A stretch of 38,796 nucleotides of DNA from Alphaproteobacteria bacterium (GTDB lineage: Bacteria > Pseudomonadota > Alphaproteobacteria > Sphingomonadales > Kordiimonadaceae). The notes under the pieces were generated by a model that ran no database searches, was not told the DNA's origin, and was given only the letters and a program-made list of their open reading frames with translations. The position numbers were made by a program, and so were the translations under genes. Shown in pieces: positions 1,590 to 12,634 of the stretch. The stretch lies in the NCBI GenBank assembly GCA_013372925.1, contig JABXIV010000121.1, forward strand, positions 1 through 38,796, given 5' to 3'. Numbering within the stretch: the stretch's first letter is position 1; every line of letters starts with the position of its first letter.

Positions 1590-3728
1590 TTATCCAATAA
1601 CGCGATCAACCCGGCTGATCACACGACTGACGCGAAGCGCCCGGCTGATATCGTTCAGGTGTTTCACATCCCTGACTTCCACGTCAATCACCATAACATA
1701 AAACTCAGGGTCTCGCTCAGGGATCACAAGGTTGGAAATATTTCCACCGCCTTTTGAAACTGTAGCCGCAATCGACGCCAAAGCACCCCGCTCGTTGATC
1801 ACTTCAAGGCGCAAACAGCCGGTATAGAACGCCCCACCGTCTTCGCCTTCATGCCAACGCAGATCAAGCCACAGATCGGGATGATCGTCATAGTTCGACA
1901 GCCTGCTGCAGTCGATGGTGTGGATTTCCGCCCCTTTGCCCGGAATTCTGATGCCCACAATCCTGTCACCGCGCACTGGATGGCAGCATTCAGCAAAATG
2001 AACAGCGGATTCTTGATTGATACCAGAAATCGGCACGGCGTTACCTACAGTCTGTTCCCAGTCGTGGTGAACTTCCGGCAGGCCTTCACCACGCGCGTCT
2101 TCCTTGAAACCCGGGAATGCAGCCCGCAGGATTTCCTCTTCGGTAAGCGTGCCCTGCCCAACAAGGGCATACAGCATCGACCCGTCATCCAGATTGAGTA
2201 CTTTCGCAGCTTGCTCGATCACACGATCAGAGAAATCCAAGCCATTTCGGCGACAGGCTTTCTCAATGAGCGTATGGCCAAGCTGGCCATATTCGGTTCT
2301 GCGCTTGTGCTTCACATGACGCCGGATGGCTGATCGGGCCTTACCGGTAATTACGAAACTTTCCCAGCGCGGGGATGGTGCCTGGCCCTTGGACGTCAGA
2401 ATCTGGACCTGATCGCCGTTTTCAAGCTGATGCCGCAGCGGCACCATCCGCCCGTTCACCTTGGCACCAACACAGTGGTCACCCACTTCGGTGTGCACAG
2501 CATAGGCAAAGTCAACGGTGGATGACCCACGCGGCAAGGACACCAGTTCGCCCTTGGGCGTGAAGCAGAAAACCTTATCCTGGAACATCTCAAGTTTGGT
2601 GTGCTCAAGGAATTCTTCCGGATCGGTGGTATGTTCAAGAATTTCCAGAAGTTCACGTACCCAGCGATATTGCGAACCTTCCACATTGTCGCCACCCTGC
2701 TTGTACTGCCAGTGGGCCGCCACACCGATCTCGGCTTGCTCATGCATCTTGTGGGTGCGTATCTGAATTTCCAGACGGTAGTTTTGTGGCCCAATCACTG
2801 TTGTATGGATCGAACGATAGAAATTCCGTTTCGGCGTGGAGATATAATCCTTGAAGCGCCCAGGCACCATCGGGAATGCCTGATGTACAATACCCAGGGC
2901 CCGATAACAGCCTTCAATGTCATCAACCTTGACGCGGAAGGCCATGACATCAGACAGCTGCTCAAATGTAATATTCTGACGTTCCATTTTCCGCCAGATA
3001 GAATAAGGCCTTTTGATACGGCCACTTACTTTCGCATCAATGCCTTTTTCTTGCATCAGCTTCGAAAGAGCTTCGACCATATCTTTTTCAAGATCCGGGC
3101 TTTCTTCGATCAAATAATGCAGCCGTGCATTGATGGATTCCATGGCTTCCGGATCAATATGCTGGAACGAAAGATGCTCAAGCTCATCCTTCAGTTCATG
3201 CATGCCGATCCGTTCTGCGAGCGGTGCGTAAATCTCAAGCGTTTCAAGCGAAATCCTGCGGCGCTTTTCCGGCTTCTTGATGAAATACAGCGTGCGCATA
3301 TTATGCAAACGATCAGCGAGCTTCACCAAAAGCACACGGATATCGTTCGACATGGCCAGCAGAAATTTGCGGAAGTTCTCCGCCTGACGCAGGCTTTCGG
3401 TCTGCATCTCGATTTTTGACAACTTGGTAACGCCATCAACCAGTTCTGCAACCTTGGGCCCGAACAGCTCTTCAATTTCCTCTATGGTCGCTACCGTGTC
3501 TTCTACGACATCATGCAAAAGGGCCGTGGCAATCGTATTGCCGTCCAGCTTCATGTCAGTGAGGATACCGGCCACTTCAAGCGGGTGGGAAAAATAAGGA
3601 TCGCCTGACGCACGCGTTTGGCTGCCATGAGCCTTCATGGCGAAAACATATGCCCGGTTCAGCAGCGCCTCATCGACATTCTTGTCGTAGGCCCTCACCT
3701 TTTCCACAAGCTCAAACTGACGGATCAC
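1590..3728 (-). CDS. Bifunctional (p)ppGpp synthetase/hydrolase (Rsh, RelA/SpoT family)
   Basis: This 712-residue protein is the single long Rsh enzyme typical of alphaproteobacteria. It makes and hydrolyses the alarmone (p)ppGpp in the stringent response. Hydrolase (HD) domain: SHPLEVAGIL (~46-55), LLHDVVEDT (~70-78) and DRLHNMRT (~139-146), so the metal and substrate residues are present. Synthetase domain: VMAFRVKVDD and GRFKDYISTPKRN (~280-305), then EIQIRTHKMHEQAEIG. A TGS domain follows around residues 390-450 (VFCFTPKGELVSLPRG), and a C-terminal ACT domain occupies the last ~80 residues. The start codon is GTG at 3728, and the sequence MIRQFELVEKV matches the usual family start. It lies downstream of rpoZ, the conserved alphaproteobacterial order. 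Both catalytic halves look intact. Confidence 0.96.
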   Translation of the reverse strand: MIRQFELVEKVRAYDKNVDEALLNRAYVFAMKAHGSQTRASGDPYFSHPLEVAGILTDMKLDGNTIATALLHDVVEDTVATIEEIEELFGPKVAELVDGVTKLSKIEMQTESLRQAENFRKFLLAMSNDIRVLLVKLADRLHNMRTLYFIKKPEKRRRISLETLEIYAPLAERIGMHELKDELEHLSFQHIDPEAMESINARLHYLIEESPDLEKDMVEALSKLMQEKGIDAKVSGRIKRPYSIWRKMERQNITFEQLSDVMAFRVKVDDIEGCYRALGIVHQAFPMVPGRFKDYISTPKRNFYRSIHTTVIGPQNYRLEIQIRTHKMHEQAEIGVAAHWQYKQGGDNVEGSQYRWVRELLEILEHTTDPEEFLEHTKLEMFQDKVFCFTPKGELVSLPRGSSTVDFAYAVHTEVGDHCVGAKVNGRMVPLRHQLENGDQVQILTSKGQAPSPRWESFVITGKARSAIRRHVKHKRRTEYGQLGHTLIEKACRRNGLDFSDRVIEQAAKVLNLDDGSMLYALVGQGTLTEEEILRAAFPGFKEDARGEGLPEVHHDWEQTVGNAVPISGINQESAVHFAECCHPVRGDRIVGIRIPGKGAEIHTIDCSRLSNYDDHPDLWLDLRWHEGEDGGAFYTGCLRLEVINERGALASIAATVSKGGGNISNLVIPERDPEFYVMVIDVEVRDVKHLNDISRALRVSRVISRVDRVIG

Positions 3729-3780
3729 GCGCTTATCTCACTTTCAAACAACTAAAGACTAGCTAACAGAAATAATGGTT

Positions 3781-3797
3781 CTGGCAGATTATGCCAG
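3781..3797. repeat. Inverted repeat in the rsh leader
   Basis: CTGGCA (3781-3786) and TGCCAG (3792-3797) form a perfect 6-bp inverted repeat with a 5-base centre, lying 53 bases upstream of the rsh start codon. It could be an mRNA hairpin or a protein site. No function can be assigned from the sequence alone. Confidence 0.3.
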
Positions 3798-3844
3798 CCC
3801 TTATTGTGCCCTCAGGAGATTCTCAGAAAATTATACCGGCACAA

Positions 3845-3875
3845 ATAAAAAAGCCCGGCAAACAAGCCGGGCTTT
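3845..3875 (-). terminator. Rho-independent terminator of rpoZ
   Basis: AAAGCCCGGC (3850-3859) pairs perfectly with GCCGGGCTTT (3866-3875) around a 6-base AAACAA loop. On the minus strand the stem is followed by a T-rich tract ending in TTTATTTGT. It lies 27 bases after the rpoZ stop codon, so rsh is probably expressed at least partly from its own promoter. Confidence 0.9.
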
Positions 3876-3901
3876 CAAAATCATGCGTAGCTGGGAAAGG
3901 C

Positions 3902-4216
3902 TTATTCAGTGCCCTCTTTCTTAGGCGCTGCACCTTCTTCCATACCAGCCATAAGAATGGACATATCCACTTCTTCCGGCTCGTCTGATTCCACAACTTT
4001 GCGAAGACCATGGATCACTGATTCCATCAGGTCATCAGCGATAACTTTTTCTTCTGCGATTTCACGCAGGGATACAACGGCGTTCTTGTCGTTATCGCGA
4101 TCAACTTCAAGCGGAGCGCCAGAAGAGATTTGGCGGGAACGCTGAGCAGCAGCCAGCACAAGATCAAACCGGTTAGTTACCTTATCGACGCAATCCTCAA
4201 CGGTAACGCGAGCCAT
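3902..4216 (-). CDS. rpoZ: DNA-directed RNA polymerase omega subunit
   Basis: Omega is the small RNA polymerase subunit that helps assemble beta-prime and forms part of a ppGpp-binding site in proteobacterial enzymes. The 104-residue protein begins [13 protein letters not shown], followed by [16 protein letters not shown] and [15 protein letters not shown], the classic omega motifs. The acidic, Glu-rich tail after residue ~75 is usual in alphaproteobacteria. GGAG lies 9 bases before the ATG at 4216. A good sigma-70-like promoter lies about 60 bases upstream and a strong terminator follows. Its position next to rsh fits the functional link between omega and ppGpp. Confidence 0.96.
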
Positions 4217-4281
4217 GCTTCATTTCTCCAATTCTTTTAACATCGGGCGTTCAACTTTGCCGCCCGGCATACGAGCGCCCG

Positions 4282-4310
4282 CTTATACAGGGACCACTCG
4301 CCCCTGTAAA
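4282..4310 (-). promoter_or_regulatory. Sigma-70-like promoter of rpoZ with inverted repeat in the spacer
   Basis: Read on the minus strand, TTTACA (4305-4310) and TATAAG (4282-4287) are separated by exactly 17 bases, close to the consensus pair. The predicted transcript starts near 4275, leaving about a 60-base leader before rpoZ. ACAGGG (4287-4292) and CCCTGT (4302-4307) form an inverted repeat that fills the spacer and touches both hexamers, so a repressor could bind here. Confidence 0.6.
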
Positions 4311-4328
4311 GCTTGGAATCAGTATAAT

Positions 4329-4934
4329 TCAAGCACTGCTATTGACCAATGGAATTTTCCAGACACCCGACAGACCGTCTGTGCGATAAAGGTCCTCATA
4401 AAGCTCTGCCACTGTCTTCTTCAATACCGGATGCACCCACTTTGGCGCCACATCCTTCAGGGGAGCAAGCACAAAACCCCGTTGATGCGCCCTGGGATGA
4501 GGAACAACAGGCTCTTCAAGGATTGCAGCAGGGTCGTCACTTTCCACAAGCAAACGCCACGCTGCCTTGTCCGGCAACACCAAATCACCATAGCCGATCA
4601 AGTCAAGGTCCAATGGACGAGCACTCCAGCGCGCAGCGGGTTTCCGACCATAGGCACGTTCGATTGCCTGCACTTCCTGCAGGATTTCCGCAGGTGTCAA
4701 ACTAGTTTCAACCAGAACGCAGGCATTGATGAAATCGGGGATATCTTCCTGCCCCTCAAGCGTGACCGCCGTACTTTTGTAGAGGCTGGATGCCTGCCGC
4801 ACACTGCCAATGCTGCGGTCGATATCCTCAACAGCCGCTCGTATTGTCTGTTCTGGTGCGCCGACAAAAGACGGAAGGTTCGCGCCCAGCGAAAGCATTA
4901 CTTCCTTACTTTTCAACAGCTTCCCCCACTTCAC
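4329..4934 (-). CDS. folK: 2-amino-4-hydroxy-6-hydroxymethyldihydropteridine diphosphokinase
   Basis: FolK transfers pyrophosphate from ATP to 6-hydroxymethyl-7,8-dihydropterin in folate synthesis. The 201-residue protein shows SLGANLP near the N-terminus, the catalytic signature RPLDLDLIGYGD (~107-118, with the metal-binding DLD), and VPHPRAHQRGFVLAPL (~144-159), all diagnostic. The frame opens with a GTG at 4934, 4 bases after AAGGA. An ATG at 4898 (also preceded by AAGGA) is an alternative that would start just before the first beta strand. The gene precedes rpoZ in the same direction, but rpoZ appears to have its own promoter inside the gap. Confidence 0.93.
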   Translation of the reverse strand: MKWGKLLKSKEVMLSLGANLPSFVGAPEQTIRAAVEDIDRSIGSVRQASSLYKSTAVTLEGQEDIPDFINACVLVETSLTPAEILQEVQAIERAYGRKPAARWSARPLDLDLIGYGDLVLPDKAAWRLLVESDDPAAILEEPVVPHPRAHQRGFVLAPLKDVAPKWVHPVLKKTVAELYEDLYRTDGLSGVWKIPLVNSSA

Positions 4935-4983
4935 ATTTCCTTGATACTATAGATTTTTCAATCCAAATTTACCAAACTTTAAG

Positions 4984-5006
4984 GGCCTCATAGCATGCTG
5001 GAGGCC
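4984..5006. repeat. Inverted repeat between folK and the NYN gene
   Basis: GGCCTC (4984-4989) and GAGGCC (5001-5006) flank an 11-base centre that itself contains the 8-base palindrome AGCATGCT (4992-4999). It lies in the 133-base divergent intergenic region. No T tract follows on either strand, so an operator or mRNA structure is more likely than a terminator. Confidence 0.35.
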
Positions 5007-5067
5007 ATAGATTGTATGCGAATTTGTTTAGTGTGATTTTTAATTTATAGAAACGATAGGACCTCTC

Positions 5068-5658
5068 ATGATTTTTTATCCAGAGGAACGCCTTGCACTC
5101 TTCATCGATGGTGCAAACCTCTATGCAACCGCCCGCGCCCTAGACATGGAAATCGACTATAAGAGCCTGCGCCGCTATTTTTCTGAAAAAGCGCGCCTTA
5201 TCAGGTCTTTTTACTATACTGCCATCCTTGAGGATCAGGAATATTCGCCGCTTCGCCCGCTGATTGACTGGCTCGACTATAACGGCTTCACACTGGTTAC
5301 AAAGCCAGTGAAGGAATTCACCGATGAACATGGTCGGCGGAAAATCAAGGGCAACATGGATATCGAAATCGCAGTTGATATGCTGAACATATCGGAGGCG
5401 CTTGATCATGTTGTGCTTTTCTCTGGTGATGGTGACTTCCGCCGCCTGTTAGAGGCGATCCAGCGCCGCGGCGTGCGCGCAACCGTTGTCAGCTCGAACC
5501 GCACACAACCTTCCATGATCGCTGATGAACTGCGCAGGCAGGCCGACCAGTTTGTTGACCTTGAAGATCTGCGTGATGTTATCGGCCGGTCTGGTGGTGG
5601 TTCACGTCAACCTGATCCTCGCGAGGCCTATCAGGAACTGGAAGTTGAAAGCAACTGA
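5068..5658 (+). CDS. NYN domain (LabA/DUF88-like) putative ribonuclease
   Basis: This 196-residue protein is a NYN (PIN-like) domain protein, a family thought to cleave RNA using clustered acidic residues and a metal. The expected acids are visible: FIDGANLY with D14, KGNMDIEIAVDML with D98 and D104, and FSGDGDF with D121 and D123. RGVRATVVS follows, giving the complete Rossmann-like core at about residues 8-165. The last ~25 residues are polar and probably disordered. The ATG at 5068 follows AGGA with a 7-base spacer. A strong terminator follows the gene. In alphaproteobacteria this family often sits near rpoZ and rsh, as here. The substrate is unknown. Confidence 0.88.
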   Translation: MIFYPEERLALFIDGANLYATARALDMEIDYKSLRRYFSEKARLIRSFYYTAILEDQEYSPLRPLIDWLDYNGFTLVTKPVKEFTDEHGRRKIKGNMDIEIAVDMLNISEALDHVVLFSGDGDFRRLLEAIQRRGVRATVVSSNRTQPSMIADELRRQADQFVDLEDLRDVIGRSGGGSRQPDPREAYQELEVESN

Positions 5659-5689
5659 CACTCGCGTTAGGTTTCTGCAAACGCGATTG

Positions 5690-5720
5690 AGGCGGCCTGA
5701 TTAATCGGCCGCCTTTCTTA
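5690..5720 (+). terminator. Rho-independent terminator after the NYN gene
   Basis: AGGCGGCC (5690-5697) pairs with GGCCGCCT (5707-5714) around a 9-base loop and is followed by TTCTTAT. It lies 31 bases after the NYN stop codon and ends 10 bases before the UDG start codon. Confidence 0.8.
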
Positions 5721-5730
5721 TACCGGAGAC

Positions 5731-6381
5731 ATGCCGATGCCCCGCCATATAGCGGAACCGAAGCCAAGCTGCGCCAAATGCCCCCGCCTTGTCGCCTTTC
5801 GGCGCAAGAATGAGGCGGCCTACCCTGACTATTTCAACGGCGCATCCGCAAGCTTTGGGCCGGATAGCGCTTCAGCGCTTGTGATTGGCCTGGCGCCTGG
5901 CCTGCACGGCGCCAACAAGACAGGCCGCCCCTTCACAGGCGATGCGTCAGGTGACATGTTATATAGCTGCATGGCTGAGGCGGGGCTGACGACCGGCACG
6001 TTTGAAAACGATCCAAAGGACGGCTTTGACCTGCGCGGGATCATGATCACCAACGCTGTGCGGTGCGTGCCGCCCGAAAACAAACCTACCGCCGCCGAAG
6101 TCAAGAAATGCCAACCCTATCTGGTAGGCCGTATGAAGGCGCTACCGAACCTCAAAGCGCTGTTCGCGCTCGGCAAGATTGCGCATGATGCCACGTTGCG
6201 CGCGCTTGGGTTTCGCCTGGCCGACTATCCATTCGCGCACGGCGCTGTCCACCGCCTGCCAAACGGGCTTACCATGGTCGATAGCTATCATTGTTCCCGC
6301 TACAATGTGAACACCAAACGCCTGACGCGGGAGATGTTCCTGGATGCACTTGCTGCCCTTAAATCGGCATCCGGCCTTTAA
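5731..6381 (+). CDS. Type-5 (UdgB-like) uracil-DNA glycosylase
   Basis: This 216-residue protein matches family 5 uracil-DNA glycosylases, which remove uracil and some other deaminated bases to start base excision repair. Motif A is GLAPGLHGANKTG (residues 53-65), with RPFTGD after it. The C-terminal motif SYHCSRYNVNT (185-195) takes the place of the HPS motif of other UDGs. Four cysteines, C14, C17, C112 and C127, are placed to hold the [4Fe-4S] cluster of this group. GGAG precedes the start. Both ATGs, at 5731 and 5737, are usable, and the second has better spacing. The gene follows the NYN terminator, so its promoter is probably within or close to that hairpin. Confidence 0.9.
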   Translation: MPMPRHIAEPKPSCAKCPRLVAFRRKNEAAYPDYFNGASASFGPDSASALVIGLAPGLHGANKTGRPFTGDASGDMLYSCMAEAGLTTGTFENDPKDGFDLRGIMITNAVRCVPPENKPTAAEVKKCQPYLVGRMKALPNLKALFALGKIAHDATLRALGFRLADYPFAHGAVHRLPNGLTMVDSYHCSRYNVNTKRLTREMFLDALAALKSASGL

Positions 6382-6390
6382 ATCCCTCGC

Positions 6391-6431
6391 ATAAGAAAAG
6401 CGACGGCGCTATGGGGGCTGCGCCGTCGCTT
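6391..6431 (-). terminator. Rho-independent terminator of the 79-residue orphan gene
   Basis: AAGCGACGGCGC (6398-6409) pairs perfectly over 12 bp with GCGCCGTCGCTT (6420-6431), with a 10-base loop. On the minus strand it is followed by TTTTCTTAT. The T tract serves the minus-strand gene ending at 6481, but the stem may also help end the convergent UDG transcript. Confidence 0.85.
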
Positions 6432-6480
6432 CCACTCGAAACCGGGTACTCAGAACATCAGGAGGAAAATAACGACTGCC

Positions 6481-6720
6481 TCAGGCAGCCATCACTTCGT
6501 TGGCTAGTTCAGACTGGTTGGACAACCATGCACCAACCTTTTCAAGCACATCCCGAGGCCCCAAGTGTGAGGCGGCCTCTGGGCCTGCAACGACGGAGAA
6601 AATGCCAGCAGCCGTCGCTGCATCGCCACTTTCAACCGCCACAACCAGCGCCCGCATCAGATTTGGGCGCATTGCTGCAATGGAATGTGCATAGGTCCGG
6701 GGGAGGATATAGTCTGCCAT
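6481..6720 (-). CDS. Hypothetical protein, 79 residues
   Basis: I do not recognise this protein. The chosen ATG at 6720 gives a start MADYILPRTY and has AAGG 8 bases upstream; an upstream in-frame start at 6753 exists but runs through a 5-bp hairpin. The product is alanine-rich and probably all-helical. It has no signal peptide, no membrane segment and no cysteine. It is flanked by a strong terminator and its own intergenic region, which supports a real, independently expressed gene. A phasin-like or small regulatory helical protein would fit its composition, but nothing in the sequence proves it. Confidence 0.65.
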   Translation of the reverse strand: MADYILPRTYAHSIAAMRPNLMRALVVAVESGDAATAAGIFSVVAGPEAASHLGPRDVLEKVGAWLSNQSELANEVMAA

Positions 6721-6734
6721 TGCTTTTACCTTTT

Positions 6735-6749
6735 GTCGTTCTAGACGAC
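6735..6749. repeat. Short inverted repeat just upstream of the orphan gene's ribosome site
   Basis: GTCGT (6735-6739) and ACGAC (6745-6749) flank TCTAG. The repeat lies 15 bases upstream of the ATG at 6720 on the minus strand, adjoining the AAGG ribosome-binding sequence. It could be an operator or a weak hairpin affecting translation. Confidence 0.25.
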
Positions 6750-6868
6750 TCAATTACACAACAAATTCCTTAATTTTGAACTAAAGGCACAATATCTTGT
6801 GTTTTTACATGGATTTACCACTCCCTTAAAAGCAGGTAGACTGTTATCAAGACGAAAAAGGAGGGTCT

Positions 6869-7654
6869 ATGGTTGCCGAAACGCCCAACATGGGGGAACA
6901 GGTTACCTTTCGCGAAGGGGATACAATTTACGCCCAGGGAGACGACAGTTCTGGCGTCTATATGATCCTTGATGGCCAGATCGATATTTGGCGCTATGAA
7001 GGGGATAACAGCCACCATATAGCAGCACTCGGCAACGGCGACCTGCTGGGTGAAGTGAGTGTTATCGAGAAGAAACGACACTCCGTCACTGCGCGGGCTT
7101 CCAAGCACACCATCGCGCTGTTTATTGCAGCAGACGCTTTTCGAAAAAGTTTCTCAGACCCCCTTGTCCGGCATGTGGTCCATACACTTGCTGCAAGGCT
7201 TAGAAGCTCATACGCCATCAAGGATGCGATCGAAGCCGAAACAGACCAGCCTGCCAGCTACAAAAGCCAACACCCCATCATTGAAGGACAATCCCGCATT
7301 GTTGCCGAAAAAATGCTGACGTTCGTGGAGATCAAGGAATTCCCCTTCGCGGTTGGCAATATTGCGAACACCGGTGGGCAGGCAATTGTAAACCTCAATT
7401 CGCTGAAGGTACCGCTGAAGGGCGCTCCTGAACTGTCTGACAACCATTTTGAGATTATCCGGCGAGAAGGACAAGTGTGGGTGCGCGATCTGGGCAGCCA
7501 TCACGGTACGTCCGTGAATGGGGAAAAGCTGAGCAAATACACCATGAAGGCAACAGCAAAGTTGAAAACCGGCCACAACAGGATCTCCGCAGGTGGCCCA
7601 GAAAGCCCCGTAAGGTTCCTGATCACAGTGCCTCCAACAGTAAAAGAGACTTAG
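6869..7654 (+). CDS. Cyclic-nucleotide-binding domain / FHA domain fusion protein
   Basis: This soluble 261-residue protein joins two sensor or adaptor domains. Residues ~8-115 form a cNMP-binding fold of the Crp type ([12 protein letters not shown], then [19 protein letters not shown] in place of the usual phosphate-binding cassette). Residues ~158-250 look like an FHA domain, with S190-D-N-H193 and HHGTSVNGE (211-219), the residues that read phosphothreonine. There is no DNA-binding or catalytic domain. It may connect a nucleotide second messenger to a phosphoprotein partner. AAGGAGGG 6 bases upstream of the ATG is a near-perfect ribosome site. Its last 4 bases overlap the end of the convergent smpB gene. 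Confidence 0.85.
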
Positions 7655-8145
7655 CTCATATCTTTCATGAGACGAGATTTCTGTCGGTTCCAGTCACGCT
7701 GCTTTACGTCTTCCCGCTTGTCACGGACATTTTTGCCTTTCCCAAGACCGATGAGAATCTTGGCCCGGCCACGCTCAGTGAAATAGACCTTCAAGGGAAC
7801 CAATGTATAACCCTGGCGCTGAACAGCCCCTGCAAGCTTGTTGATTTCTCGCCGATGCATCAACAGCTTCCTTGGGCGACGAGGCTCATGGTTAAAGCGA
7901 TTACCGTGAGAAAATTCCGGAATATGGGCGTTTACAAGCCAAAGCTCGCCATCCTTTTCTTCTGCATAGCTTTCCCGGATATTCGCCTCACCATTGCGAA
8001 GCGACTTCACTTCGGTACCCGTCAACGCGATACCTGCCTCAAACTCATCTTCAATATGATAGAGATGGCGTGCCTTGCGGTTGTCGGCAGCAACGCGGTT
8101 TGGCAACTTTCCGCCCTTGTTCTTATTTTTGTTTTTCCCTGCCAT
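7651..8145 (-). CDS. smpB: SsrA-binding protein SmpB
   Basis: SmpB binds tmRNA and mimics part of a tRNA so that stalled ribosomes are rescued. The 164-residue protein shows [18 protein letters not shown] and [16 protein letters not shown], then AHIPEF and [12 protein letters not shown], and the basic C-terminal tail [18 protein letters not shown] that enters the decoding centre. Its start is 5 bases after the dapA stop, so the two form an operon, an order common in alphaproteobacteria. Its stop overlaps the convergent cNMP-FHA gene by 4 bases, and no intrinsic terminator is visible there. Confidence 0.96.
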
Positions 8146-8150
8146 AATGC

Positions 8151-9041
8151 TTATCCGAGGTTTGCCGGCTCCAGGCCAAGCTCATGAACCACAGCCGAGA
8201 TTGTCGAACGTGCTGCTTCGGTGGCCGGCAGCAACGGCAAGCGCACAGCATCTGTACCGATACCAAGCAACGAGCACGCATATTTAGCGGGTGCTGGGCT
8301 TGGTTCCATAAACATCGCGCGGTGAAGCGGCAACAGCTTATCCTGAATGGAAAGCGCGGTTTTATAGTCACCGTTCAAACAAGCTTCCTGCATCTGACTG
8401 CAAAGCTTTGGCGCCACATTCGCAGACACGGAGATACACCCAACGCCCCCAAGGGCATTAAAGCCGATCGCTGTGGCATCTTCACCGGAAAGCTGGATGA
8501 AGTCTGGGCCCATAGCCGCCCGCTGGCTGGCGCAGCGATCAAGGTCTCCGGTTGCATCCTTGACACCAACAATGCGCGGCAACTCGAAAAGCTCAGCCAT
8601 CGTATCCGTGGACATATCCACAACTGAACGCCCCGGGATATTGTAGATAATGATCGGCAGATCGCAAGCGTCATGCACTGCCTTGAAGTGGGCATAGAGC
8701 CCGGCCTGACTGGGTTTGTTATAATAAGGCGTTACAACAAGGGCCGCGTCCGCGCCTACCTTTTCGGCGTGCTTGATTAGGCCAATCGCTTCAGCAGTAT
8801 TGTTTGACCCCGCGCCCGCAATAACAGGAACACGGCCATCGGCGGCTTCAACGCACAGCTCGACAACCAACTTGTGTTCATCATGGCTCAGCGTGGGCGA
8901 TTCACCGGTGGTTCCTACAGGAACCAGGCCATGTGAACCTTCCTTGATTTGCCAGTCTACGAACTTCTGGAAAGTCGCACCGTCAACCTTTCCGTCTTCC
9001 GTGAAAGTGGTGATCAGCGCTGGAATGGAGCCTTTAAACAT
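8151..9041 (-). CDS. dapA: 4-hydroxy-tetrahydrodipicolinate synthase
   Basis: DapA condenses pyruvate with aspartate semialdehyde, the first committed step of lysine and diaminopimelate synthesis. The 296-residue protein has normal length and keeps the whole active site: T44-T45 in GTTGESP, Y107 in PYYNKP, Y133 and R138 in YNIPGRS, and the Schiff-base lysine K161 in [13 protein letters not shown] lies directly before the ATG at 9041. It is followed by smpB with a 5-base gap. A tiny open frame (9078-9140) with a good ribosome site lies just upstream. Confidence 0.97.
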
Positions 9042-9184: not shown

Positions 9185-10495
9185 TTACCGATTCAAATAT
9201 GCATCAAGCTCTTCTAGTAGAGCATCAGATTCAGAAGAAAGCCGTTCCGTGGAAGCGCGTAGCTGCTCAGCCGCCGAGCCTGTTTTCTGTGCATCCCCCG
9301 TTGCTTCCCTCAGGTCTCCCCCCAAAGAGCTCGTCATGCTGAACGCAGTCTGAGCGTGCTGGCTGATTTCCTGCGTTGCTGCGTCTTGTTGGGTCATGGC
9401 CCCTGCAACAGCCCCAAAGCTTTCATTCATGCTTTCAATTGTATCAGTAATCTTCCTGATGGATTCCGCCGCATTGTCTGCGGCTTGTTGCATAGAATTA
9501 ATCTGAGCGGTGATATCTCCTGTGGCCTTGCCTGTCTGGCTGGCCAGGGCCTTGACCTCACTTGCAACGACCGCGAAGCCTTTCCCTGCCTCCCCTGCGC
9601 GAGCTGCTTCAATGGTGGCATTCAGCGCAAGCAAGTTTGTTTTGTCGGAAACATCTTCGATCAAACGAATAATCGAAGAAACCCGGTCCGATGCGACAAC
9701 AAGTTCCTGCATGATGCTGTCTACGTGTGAGGCTTCTTCTACGGCAGACTGCAAGTCCTGGGATGATTGCGAGATTCGGTGGCTTATTTCATTGATAGAG
9801 GCGGTCATCTCTTCCGATGCTGCGGCCACTGATTTAACCGCACCTTCAGCCCCCGAGACTGTTTCGCTGGCCTGCGTACAGCGATCGGACGATTCCCGCG
9901 CCGTATCCGCAAGCATTTCCACTGCAGCCCGCATTTCTGCCATACTGGAGGCTACGTTCTTAACATTACCTGCAAATTTTTCCGTAATTTGTGCAGAGTC
10001 TTTCTGGCGCTTGTCCATTGCATCCAGGGCACCGTTGATTACGCCTGCCTGGTGCTGGAATGCGCCACCAAACCCGGTACGGCGCACCTGCCGGTAATAA
10101 AGGTCGTCTCTTACAAACTCCATCGCCGCCCCTGCTTCCCTGATGAAAGCATCGGACATATCAATGAAGTCGTTTACTCGGTCCCGCAACACCAAAAAGG
10201 CCTCACTCGCCTGCGCATTGTTCGGCAATCTGGACTCAAGATCACCGTTTGTGACTTTCTCCAACGTATCGGTGGCTAATTTTATTTCCAGTTCATACGC
10301 GAAGCACTTTTCACCGGAAGAAAGATAAGCCCGCATCAGTTCAGCAACAGGCGAAAGAGAGTTCCCCTGTTCTAGGTCAGGAATGAAAACATCTTTTTGG
10401 CCCGCTAGCAGCGCCTTGCAAGCCACGAGCAAAACGTCCAGGTCGCCAACATTTGCAGTCACCCTGTCCGGGTTAAATCGAGAAAATAAATTCAT
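9185..10495 (-). CDS. Soluble methyl-accepting chemotaxis transducer
   Basis: This 436-residue chemoreceptor has no membrane segment. Its N-terminal half (~70-160) contains HAMP-like coiled-coil sequence ([11 protein letters not shown], then [12 protein letters not shown]). Residues ~175-425 form the long MCP signalling hairpin, with the conserved tip [20 protein letters not shown] (~288-307) that contacts CheA and CheW. There is no C-terminal NWETF-like tether for CheR/CheB. Its start lies inside the 3' end of the PAS gene (23-base overlap), so translation is probably coupled. Together the two proteins resemble a split Aer receptor: the PAS protein senses redox or FAD state and this protein signals. 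Confidence 0.92.
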
Positions 10496-10991
10496 CGTAA
10501 TTCACCCCTTTTTCTTTCAGCCATCCTTCAAGAAACTGACAACTGGCCTGAATTGCGTCTTTTCGCCGCTCTACTTGAGCTTCAATCCTCAACATTTCCT
10601 CATAGATTGGCTTGATAACATCAAGCGCGCTTGACCTCGGCACCCGCCGATTGGAATGATAGCCAACATGCTGGCCCGCCTGATCAAAACTGGGGGTCAC
10701 GTGCGCCAAAACCCAGTAATAGTCACCGCCCTTGGTGCTGTTGACCACATAGGCGAAAATCTCTTTCTTGTTTTTCAAACGGCTCCAGAGAAGTTCAAAC
10801 ACGCCGCGAGGCATGGATTGATGCCGAATAATGTTGTGAGGACATCCGATGAGGTCATCCTCGCAATAATCCGCAATCGTACAAAACAAGCGATTTACGT
10901 AAGTAATTTTACCCTTTAGGTCGGTTTTACTTACGATAATCCTGTTTGAATCGAATGTGCGCTCAACGCCAGAAATAATTTGAGCTGTCAT
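10473..10991 (-). CDS. Aer-like PAS domain protein
   Basis: This 172-residue protein holds one PAS domain (~15-120) of the type found in the aerotaxis receptor Aer. Signature pieces are [10 protein letters not shown] (27-36), [11 protein letters not shown] (51-61, equivalent to the Aer NIVRHxDMP flavin pocket) and [13 protein letters not shown] (88-100). A helical tail of ~45 residues follows. No membrane or output domain is present. The downstream chemotaxis transducer starts 23 bases before this gene's stop, so the pair probably forms one sensory unit. FAD binding is an inference from the Aer family. GGGA lies upstream of the ATG at 10991. Confidence 0.85.
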
Positions 10992-11118: not shown

Positions 11119-11132
11119 TTAACTTATGTTAA
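11119..11132. promoter_or_regulatory. Crp/Fnr-type operator (TTAAC-N4-GTTAA)
   Basis: TTAAC (11119-11123) and GTTAA (11128-11132) are perfect inverted half-sites separated by 4 bases. This is the same 5-4-5 geometry as the FNR box TTGAT-N4-ATCAA, and it is very close to the PrfA box TTAACANNTGTTAA. The site lies in the 233-base region between the divergent PAS-MCP genes and the FNR-like gene. A TATGAT hexamer at 11144-11149 follows on the plus strand, so binding could overlap the -35 region and give autorepression. Confidence 0.5.
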
Positions 11133-11224: not shown

Positions 11225-11995
11225 GTGAGTGGTTTTTGTCAAATCTGTCCCAACCATGGGGGACCAGATAATTGTAAGTATGATCCACGCGATGATGAGG
11301 ATGAAAGCAGTCTGATTGTCGGGCATCACGAGATCGCGCCGCGGCAGGTTGTTTCAACCATCCTGAAACCGGGACAGATGGTGCATATCCGGCGTGGATG
11401 GGCGTATTCATATCGCGTTATGCCGAACGGCGAACGCCAGTTGGGCGGTATCTACAGCGATGGCGACATCCTGTGCTGGCCAAATGTTTTCAGTTCGCGG
11501 TCTGGCTGCAGTTCACGCGCCATTACCAAACTCGATATCTGTGTTATCAATATCGACTCATTTACCAAGCGTGTCCGTGGCGATGGGCGCTTTTTCCAGT
11601 TCTTTCAGCGCCTGTTGGAGCGCCAGTTTCTCGCCCTTACAGATCGCACATTCGATCTGTGCCACAGAAGTGCAGAACAGAGATTGTGCAGAATCCTGAT
11701 CAAGGCATGCCTGTCGCTGTGCGGCAAGATCGGCAACTATATGGAACCGATCCCTATCACGCAGGAAATTCTGGCCGATCTTATCGGTGCAACTAAAATC
11801 CATGTAAATCGGCTACTATCAAGCCTTAGACAACGAAATGTCTGCCATGTCAGCCACGGATACCTGAGCATTCTGGATTGGGAACGGCTGATAGAAACAG
11901 CGGAAGTTACCCTGGCCGAACTGGATGAGTGGAAAGACCTGCTGGCCCCGCAAATCTATCCACCGCCGATTCAGAAAAAAGAACTCGATGCATAA
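11225..11995 (+). CDS. Crp/Fnr-family regulator, probably FNR-like with Fe-S cluster ligands
   Basis: This 256-residue regulator has a Crp-like beta-barrel (~40-115), a dimer helix (~118-150) and a winged HTH (~178-235; ITQEILADLIGATKIHVNRLL). An N-terminal CQICPNHGGPDNC places C5, C8 and C17 like the FNR cluster ligands. C106 in LDICVINID aligns by eye with the fourth FNR ligand (C122), so an oxygen-sensing [4Fe-4S] cluster is plausible, though the third spacing is longer than in E. coli FNR. In the recognition helix, the FNR Glu209 and Ser212 positions are Ile192 and Asn195, while Arg is kept (R196). The start is GTG at 11225 with GGGAGG 6 bases upstream; a GTG at 11183 is the alternative. 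It diverges from the PAS-MCP pair. Confidence 0.85.
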   Translation: MSGFCQICPNHGGPDNCKYDPRDDEDESSLIVGHHEIAPRQVVSTILKPGQMVHIRRGWAYSYRVMPNGERQLGGIYSDGDILCWPNVFSSRSGCSSRAITKLDICVINIDSFTKRVRGDGRFFQFFQRLLERQFLALTDRTFDLCHRSAEQRLCRILIKACLSLCGKIGNYMEPIPITQEILADLIGATKIHVNRLLSSLRQRNVCHVSHGYLSILDWERLIETAEVTLAELDEWKDLLAPQIYPPPIQKKELDA

Positions 11996-12055: not shown

Positions 12056-12634
12056 TTATTGACCGTGAGGTCGCTTCATGCCCTTGCCATCACGCATGCC
12101 TTTGCGGTGATGCTCGAATGCATTGCGGGTCTCCTCCGAGGTCACCTGTCCATCACCATCAATATCCATGCGCTTAAAGCGTTCTACAGCTTTGCGTGAG
12201 AATTCTTCGAAAGATACGCGTTCATCACCATCATGATCATGGCGGGCGATAAAGCGGATACGGGTGGGCTTACCCTTTGGCCCCATGCCCCGCATTTCCG
12301 GTGGTGGCATATCGTCAGCGTCCATACCACGCTCCTTCATACGCTCTTCCATGCGCTTGGCACGTTTTTCCATACGTTCGCGCACATGCTCAGGTACAGG
12401 CATTTCTTCCGGCAGCTCTGCCAGCGTGATATATCCATCATCGTCTTTATCGAACATGGAGAAACGCCCCCGAACCTTTTCCAGCATCTCTTCATGCGTA
12501 ACAACGCCGTTGCCGTCGGTGTCAGCTTCCTTGAAACGCTCTTCCATTCGGCCCTGTCCCTTGCCTGACGCAAGTACACCTGTCGCAAAAAGACTCACTG
12601 CTGATATCGCTATCGCTTGTTTCCATATTTTCAT
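12056..12634 (-). CDS. Exported EF-hand calcium-binding protein
   Basis: This 192-residue protein has a cleavable signal peptide (hydrophobic ~7-22, cleavage near ...LASG). Four EF-hand loops follow: DTDGNGVVTHEE (38-49), DKDDDGYITLAE (62-73), DHDGDERVSFEE (133-144) and DIDGDGQVTSEE (157-168). They form two pairs joined by a Met-, Arg- and Glu-rich helical linker (~82-115). The third loop has Glu where the central Gly is normal, so it may bind calcium less well. Similar small exported EF-hand proteins are common in alphaproteobacteria; their role is usually unproven. AGAGGA lies 7 bases before the ATG at 12634. The gene is convergent with the FNR-like gene and divergent from the M1 peptidase gene. 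Confidence 0.88.
   Translation of the reverse strand: MKIWKQAIAISAVSLFATGVLASGKGQGRMEERFKEADTDGNGVVTHEEMLEKVRGRFSMFDKDDDGYITLAELPEEMPVPEHVRERMEKRAKRMEERMKERGMDADDMPPPEMRGMGPKGKPTRIRFIARHDHDGDERVSFEEFSRKAVERFKRMDIDGDGQVTSEETRNAFEHHRKGMRDGKGMKRPHGQ

Follow-up and report, generated by a model that had tools for sequence, protein, structure and literature searches.

Two overlapping genes of the window (the whole 38,796-nucleotide stretch analysed here) most probably encode a bipartite energy-taxis receptor free of the membrane, in which a redox-sensing FAD protein of the CetB type docks on a soluble chemoreceptor of the CetA type that controls the flagellar CheA. The PAS domain of CetB would bind FAD and answer changes in the cellular redox state by a change of conformation, CetB would dock on the HAMP region of CetA, and the coiled-coil hairpin of CetA would control CheA, the kinase of flagellar chemotaxis, with a motility response following. 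The first-pass annotation had read the locus as a split aerotaxis receptor. This was right in outline but the design is not novel, as the division of Aer into a PAS and an MCP protein corresponds to the CetB/CetA-type bipartite receptors described in the accessible parts of PMC2628428 and PMC12442639. Because that split is already known, the anchor-free form is the variant here. The pair occupies the following positions:

10473..10991, minus strand: cetB-like gene for a stand-alone Aer-type PAS protein with a putative FAD site (172 aa; PAS_3 E 1.8e-08, match to Aer 8dik)
9185..10495, minus strand: soluble cetA-like gene for a chemoreceptor (436 aa; MCPsignal E 6.4e-30, no predicted TM helix)
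10473..10495, minus strand: cetB/cetA overlap of 23 bases, with the cetA ATG inside the codons for Asp-Glu in YDEFIFSI at the end of CetB
10503..10511, minus strand: SD-like AAAGGGGTG within cetB, 7 bases before the cetA ATG, by direct reading of the sequence

CetB and CetA are two ORFs in different frames, and the overlap of 23 bases given by the first-pass annotation is exact. The 3' end of cetB reads TAC GAT GAA TTT ATT TTC TCG ATT TAA, and the ATG of cetA sits in GAT GAA, so that the N-terminus of CetA (MNLFSR) is dual-coded with the end of CetB. Homologues were compared as 134 distinct pairs, a number reached after removal of two pairs that were duplicates and of a tandem CetB lacking a CetA of its own. 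The CetB C-terminus has the consensus YDEF(I/V)(F/W)S among them (YDEF exact in 70/134, a loose form in 128/134), and therefore the two ORFs do not overlap by mere chance. An ATG is embedded at -23 to -32 from the CetB stop in 58 of the 134 pairs, 21 of which have it at exactly -23. A frameshift splitting a fused Aer was rejected, since there are two genes in the relatives as well, and the extent by which they overlap or stand apart differs from one relative to another. Because the start codon and SD of cetA lie inside the coding end of cetB, translation of cetA is probably coupled to that of cetB, which would hold the two proteins near 1:1. Searches of the window for tRNA, tmRNA and Rfam families gave no match.

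The window CetB contains a PAS domain alone and is, as judged from its sequence and structural model, an Aer-type protein of the CetB kind with a putative FAD site. Aer was its best solved-structure match both by sequence (8dik, E 1.2e-20) and by fold, and the CetB model (pLDDT 95.8) superimposed on the Aer PAS with a TM-score of 0.95 on the target and an rmsd of 1.0; the next match was the FAD PAS of NifL. The Aer-type assignment and the NIIRHxxMP motif proposed earlier were both confirmed, and the residues of the FAD pocket are kept. All eight FAD-contact positions of CetB2 from Magnetospirillum gryphiswaldense are identical in the window CetB at an offset of -2 (H52, N53, R56, F65, W69, N84, V98 and R115). 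H52, R56, F65, W69, N84 and R115 are invariant in 134/134 CetB homologues, with soluble and anchored partners alike, while the N53 position is more often Ser and V98 differs in 5 rows. The equivalents of F65, W69 and N84 are required for CetB2 function in M. gryphiswaldense, according to the available part of PMC12442639. E. coli Aer resembles the CetB model in a nearly superimposable PAS fold, the same motif region and the FAD-site residues, but is a single polypeptide in which the PAS is joined to a membrane anchor, HAMP and MCP (PDB 8dik; accessible part of PMC13401364).

The partner, CetA, was divided into three segments on the minus strand:

10301..10495: CetA N-terminal segment, residues 1-65, at the position of the short membrane hairpin in most anchored homologues
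10001..10300: CetA-type di-HAMP region, residues 66-165, with invariant R89, N108, D112, E120, R135, G141 and N154
9542..9640: tip of the signalling hairpin, residues 286-318

A TM helix was called when a 19-residue stretch exceeded a Kyte-Doolittle mean of 1.6, with the values of the hydrophobicity scales entered by hand. The best stretch of the window CetA reached 1.48, under this cut-off, and residues 1-65 contain no predicted membrane helix. On the summed insertion scale the window CetA scored 9.2, while all 59 anchored homologues scored 3.9 or less and the 75 soluble ones 5.5 or more. The membrane-free MCP of the first-pass annotation is thus supported by both scores, and since a TM helix is not predicted, the pair was filed as a soluble variant, apart from the characterised CetA proteins. 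The single-chain model of CetA is all-helical (pLDDT 85.0, pTM 0.44, with residues 1-50 at low confidence) and places two HAMP-like connectors (residues 83-97 and 130-143) before a long hairpin. Across an alignment of 30, the HAMP region is invariant at seven positions and nearly so at seven more. The Pfam HAMP model did not match the window CetA and matched 14 of the 49 members of the family alignment. The CetA-type di-HAMP can be used as a sequence marker to recognise transducers whose PAS partner is a protein of its own. A nine-residue HAMP list was reportedly published in Elliott 2009, which is said to be the paper defining the CetB/CetA family. Two CetA partners, L066 (4113-5630) and L097 (4025-5557), carry a C-terminal extension of about 100 residues, which by eye resembles PilZ.

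The pairing of CetB with CetA was followed in 59 genomes, the own genome and 58 relatives. At E < 1e-40, where the next weaker match had E 2.4e-18, 58 CetB-type genes were counted in 36/59 genomes. The profile of the CetA-type HAMP region gave 58 matches in the 59 genomes, 57 of them clear and one weak (E 9.5e-6), which was set aside. With that match excluded, 36 genomes had both CetB and the CetA-type HAMP, 23 had neither, and none had one alone. Widely unlinked orthologues, which the first-pass annotation had named as an argument against its own reading, were not what we found: 55 of the 58 CetB genes lie no more than 1 kb from a CetA-type HAMP on their own strand, and 55 of the 57 clear HAMP matches are paired. 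The pairing is not absolute, as three CetB genes and two clear CetA-type HAMP genes lack an adjacent partner. For two CetA-type HAMP chemoreceptors, L193 (3015-4577) and L194 (3051-4397), the surrounding 1 kb gave no CetB gene. L057 of G041 (3302-4649) and L054 of G046 (3116-8691) are tandem arrays with extra CetB genes, one being CetB-CetB-CetA and the other a run of two CetBA pairs with a single unpaired CetB behind them. A wider set consisted of the best-scoring 80 loci of at least 581 relatives found in a contig scan, which is not a random sample; there, an MCP ORF lay directly downstream of 82/82 CetB ORFs. The own genome has three CetB-CetA pairs, on C76 (the window), C204 and C168, and among its 13 MCPs with a readable tip (two further matches had none) the CetA-type motif occurs in three, which are exactly the three CetB neighbours. 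Several pairs in one cell raise the question of how pair specificity is kept.

The sequences of the two partners also covary. The CetB-CetA covariation score was 12.0, above all of 60 label-preserving partner shuffles (largest shuffled value 8.7), with relatedness uncontrolled. The strongest pairs, under the same reservation, fall on CetA residues 93, 94 and 101 in the first HAMP, and 17 of the top 40 pairs lie in HAMP1 (shuffled mean 8.6), as compared with 11 in the adjoining bundle (shuffled mean 13.5). Since shuffling removes relatedness as well, the covariation is only suggestive of an interaction between CetB and CetA.

The two described CetB/CetA systems closest to the pair have their transducer in the membrane. 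According to the accessible part of PMC2628428, CetB and CetA of Campylobacter jejuni are, like the products of the window, a stand-alone PAS protein, thought to sense redox, and a HAMP-MCP transducer encoded by adjacent genes. CetA of C. jejuni is membrane-bound and has a helical hairpin, whereas the window CetA is without a predicted membrane helix and its gene overlaps cetB by 23 bases. M. gryphiswaldense has four CetBA gene pairs of similar overlapping organisation, as described in the available part of PMC12442639. CetB2/CetA2 of this species share with the window pair the overlapping cetB-cetA genes, the FAD-contact positions and the occurrence of several paralogous pairs per genome, but CetA2 is membrane-linked, and FAD, a direct CetB2/CetA2 interaction and an FAD-dependent oxygen-repellent response were demonstrated for them, while the window pair is known from sequence (PMC12442639, available part). 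Because the transducers of both species are in the membrane, their behaviour is not simply transferable to a soluble version. The accessible part of a 2026 review gives membrane CetA proteins to bipartite receptors and a single-chain architecture to soluble PAS receptors (PMC13401364). AerC of Azospirillum brasilense and other PAS_FAD2 receptors resemble the window pair as soluble FAD-PAS chemoreceptors able to join polar clusters, but AerC-type receptors are single chains with two PAS domains and not the products of two genes (PMC13401364, accessible part). The same part of the review reports that Aer responds only if membrane-anchored; with the experimentally studied CetA proteins of C. jejuni and M. 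gryphiswaldense also in the membrane, soluble pairs are of interest.

Anchor-free CetA is, by sequence prediction, common in the order of the window, which here means the grouping of the tool (nearest named relative, Kordiimonas sediminis). A TM helix was predicted in none of 54 distinct CetA partners of this order, a count that includes the window and two fragments. L087, a normal CetB-CetA pair with a soluble CetA (Kyte-Doolittle 1.25), stands outside the 54 and outside the 134 pairs. Among the best 80 loci of at least 581 in the wider set, 59/82 CetA proteins were anchored, or 59/80 without two duplicates. With start codons chosen by rule, an overlap of at least 20 bases was present in 56/59 anchored pairs versus 12/75 soluble pairs, and the ATG at -23 to -32 was found in 53 of the anchored pairs and in five of the soluble ones, with the window among these five. 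A literature search, which left out most subscription papers including the family-defining Elliott 2009, found no description of a soluble CetA.

Trees were built from 127 of the 134 pairs (seven fragments dropped) or from 52 hand-picked rows of these, and a CetB-only tree was built from all 134. The concatenated tree of 127 rows required at least six changes of the soluble/anchored label, four of them forced by strongly supported branches. The corresponding numbers were seven and three for the CetA tree, and five and two for the 52-row tree. The short CetB-only tree required 17 label changes; its supported branches force only one, and taken alone it is therefore compatible with a single origin. 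A single clade of all soluble forms was rejected on the 52 hand-picked rows (AU p 0.004), a rejection weakened by the definition of the group only after a tree had been seen. For the window pair, the main soluble class (AU p 0.59), a second soluble class (p 0.35) and the pair of K. sediminis (p 0.81) were not rejected as partners in a group, and grouping with either paralogue of the own genome was weakly rejected (p 0.031 and 0.025). The trees do not tell the gain of an anchor from its loss.

We give about even chances to a broader reading, in which CetBA receptors switched several times between anchored and soluble forms, the order of the window has the soluble form only, the interface of sensor and HAMP rather than the anchor is the working core, most anchored cetA genes share their start with the codons of the CetB C-terminus, and the soluble pair of the window has kept a junction of this anchored type. 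The estimate is lowered by the choice of the clade group after a tree had been seen and by the CetB-only tree, which does not force several origins. The anchor-free CetBA pairs would offer a natural set for a direct test of whether the anchor matters for redox sensing, and they would allow one to ask whether such receptors join polar arrays.

The 23-base junction and the length of the window CetA match anchored homologues, and for this reason a decayed membrane hairpin was considered as the source of its N-terminus. This origin is not claimed: another soluble CetA aligns with the window CetA from Met1 over nearly the full length, the CetA N-termini of the set gave no significant match to residues 1-62 of the window (best E 0.04), and the trees did not reject grouping with the soluble classes. 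A related explanation takes the window pair as a decaying copy, in which CetA lost its hairpin and CetB-CetA no longer signals. The end branch of the pair (0.93, against a median of 0.28) would agree with this, as would the anchored-type length and junction combined with a hairpin region without a predicted membrane helix. We nevertheless consider decay improbable, as both frames are intact, nothing is lost from the FAD-site residues, the invariant positions of the HAMP or the tip of the hairpin, the anchor-free CetA is the rule in the order (54/54 distinct partners), and the N-terminus is included in the alignment with the other soluble CetA. It is more doubtful still that the two proteins act independently, with the PAS serving other partners and the MCP sensing something else. 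The few unpaired CetB and CetA genes would allow it, but the co-occurrence in 36/36 genomes, the adjacency in 55/58 cases, the overlap or near-overlap of most pairs and the direct interaction of the homologous CetB2/CetA2 (PMC12442639, available part) argue against it.

The output of the receptor was considered with two further features of the window:

11225-11995, plus strand: CRP/FNR-family regulator, probably starting with the GTG at 11225, whose N-terminus is rich in Cys (CxxC...C)
11119-11132, between the divergent regulator and cetB: 14-bp palindrome TTAACTTATGTTAA, found once in the window with 0.01 expected

The FNR-like regulator noted in the first-pass annotation exists as a CRP/FNR-type gene divergent from cetB (Crp HTH E 5.7e-12; best FNR model 30.5 bits versus a cut-off of 228), but the neighbourhood is not conserved. 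No protein similar to the regulator (E <=1e-8) was found within a few kb of CetB in 132 other loci, two of them duplicates, by a single-sequence search that a distant CRP/FNR relative could escape. The palindrome has three sites in the genome, one of which lies between ctrA and fliI on C129, and the reversed control pattern is commoner (five sites). A functional link of the CetBA pair to the regulator is therefore unsupported. A search for che operons, suggested in the first-pass annotation, detected one cheA-W-Y-B-R cluster, which adjoins CtrA, FliI, FlhA, FlhF-like, MotA-type and FliN genes; the FlhF-like and MotA-type proteins both score under the curated NCBIfam cut-offs. Its CheA domain is the only one detected in the own genome, which is 81% complete, and because of this completeness and the start of the CheA gene at a contig edge, another CheA, or partners that are not linked, may have escaped detection. 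A CheA domain is present in 36/36 genomes with CetB and also in 20/23 without it. The adjoining CRP/FNR-family gene and the palindrome would be in line with a CetBA receptor of non-swimming output, such as a cytoplasmic cluster regulating gene expression or biofilm formation. Such an output is unlikely, however, given that no second CheA was found in the 81% complete genome, that the sole detected che cluster adjoins flagellar genes, that the regulator has no similar protein in the 132 other CetB loci and that the palindrome is less frequent than its control.

The preferred receptor acting on the flagellar CheA may signal either in a separate cytoplasmic cluster or in a membrane array. The signalling domain of the window CetA has the same length as those of nine of the 12 other readable receptors in the own genome, namely both remaining CetA proteins and seven receptors for which transmembrane segments are predicted. 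Since its length matches these seven, the window CetA could just as well be part of membrane arrays. Three other chemoreceptors of the own genome (L001, L004 and L012) have paired inserts flanking the tip (7+7 or 7+14 residues) and form a second length class of receptors, though just one CheA was detected.

Elsewhere in the window, an EF-hand protein is encoded at 12056-12634 (minus strand), which matches lanmodulin below the cut-off (E 2.1e-10; 40.8 bits versus 135), and the gene at 6869-7654 (plus strand) encodes a single protein with both a cyclic-nucleotide-binding and an FHA domain.
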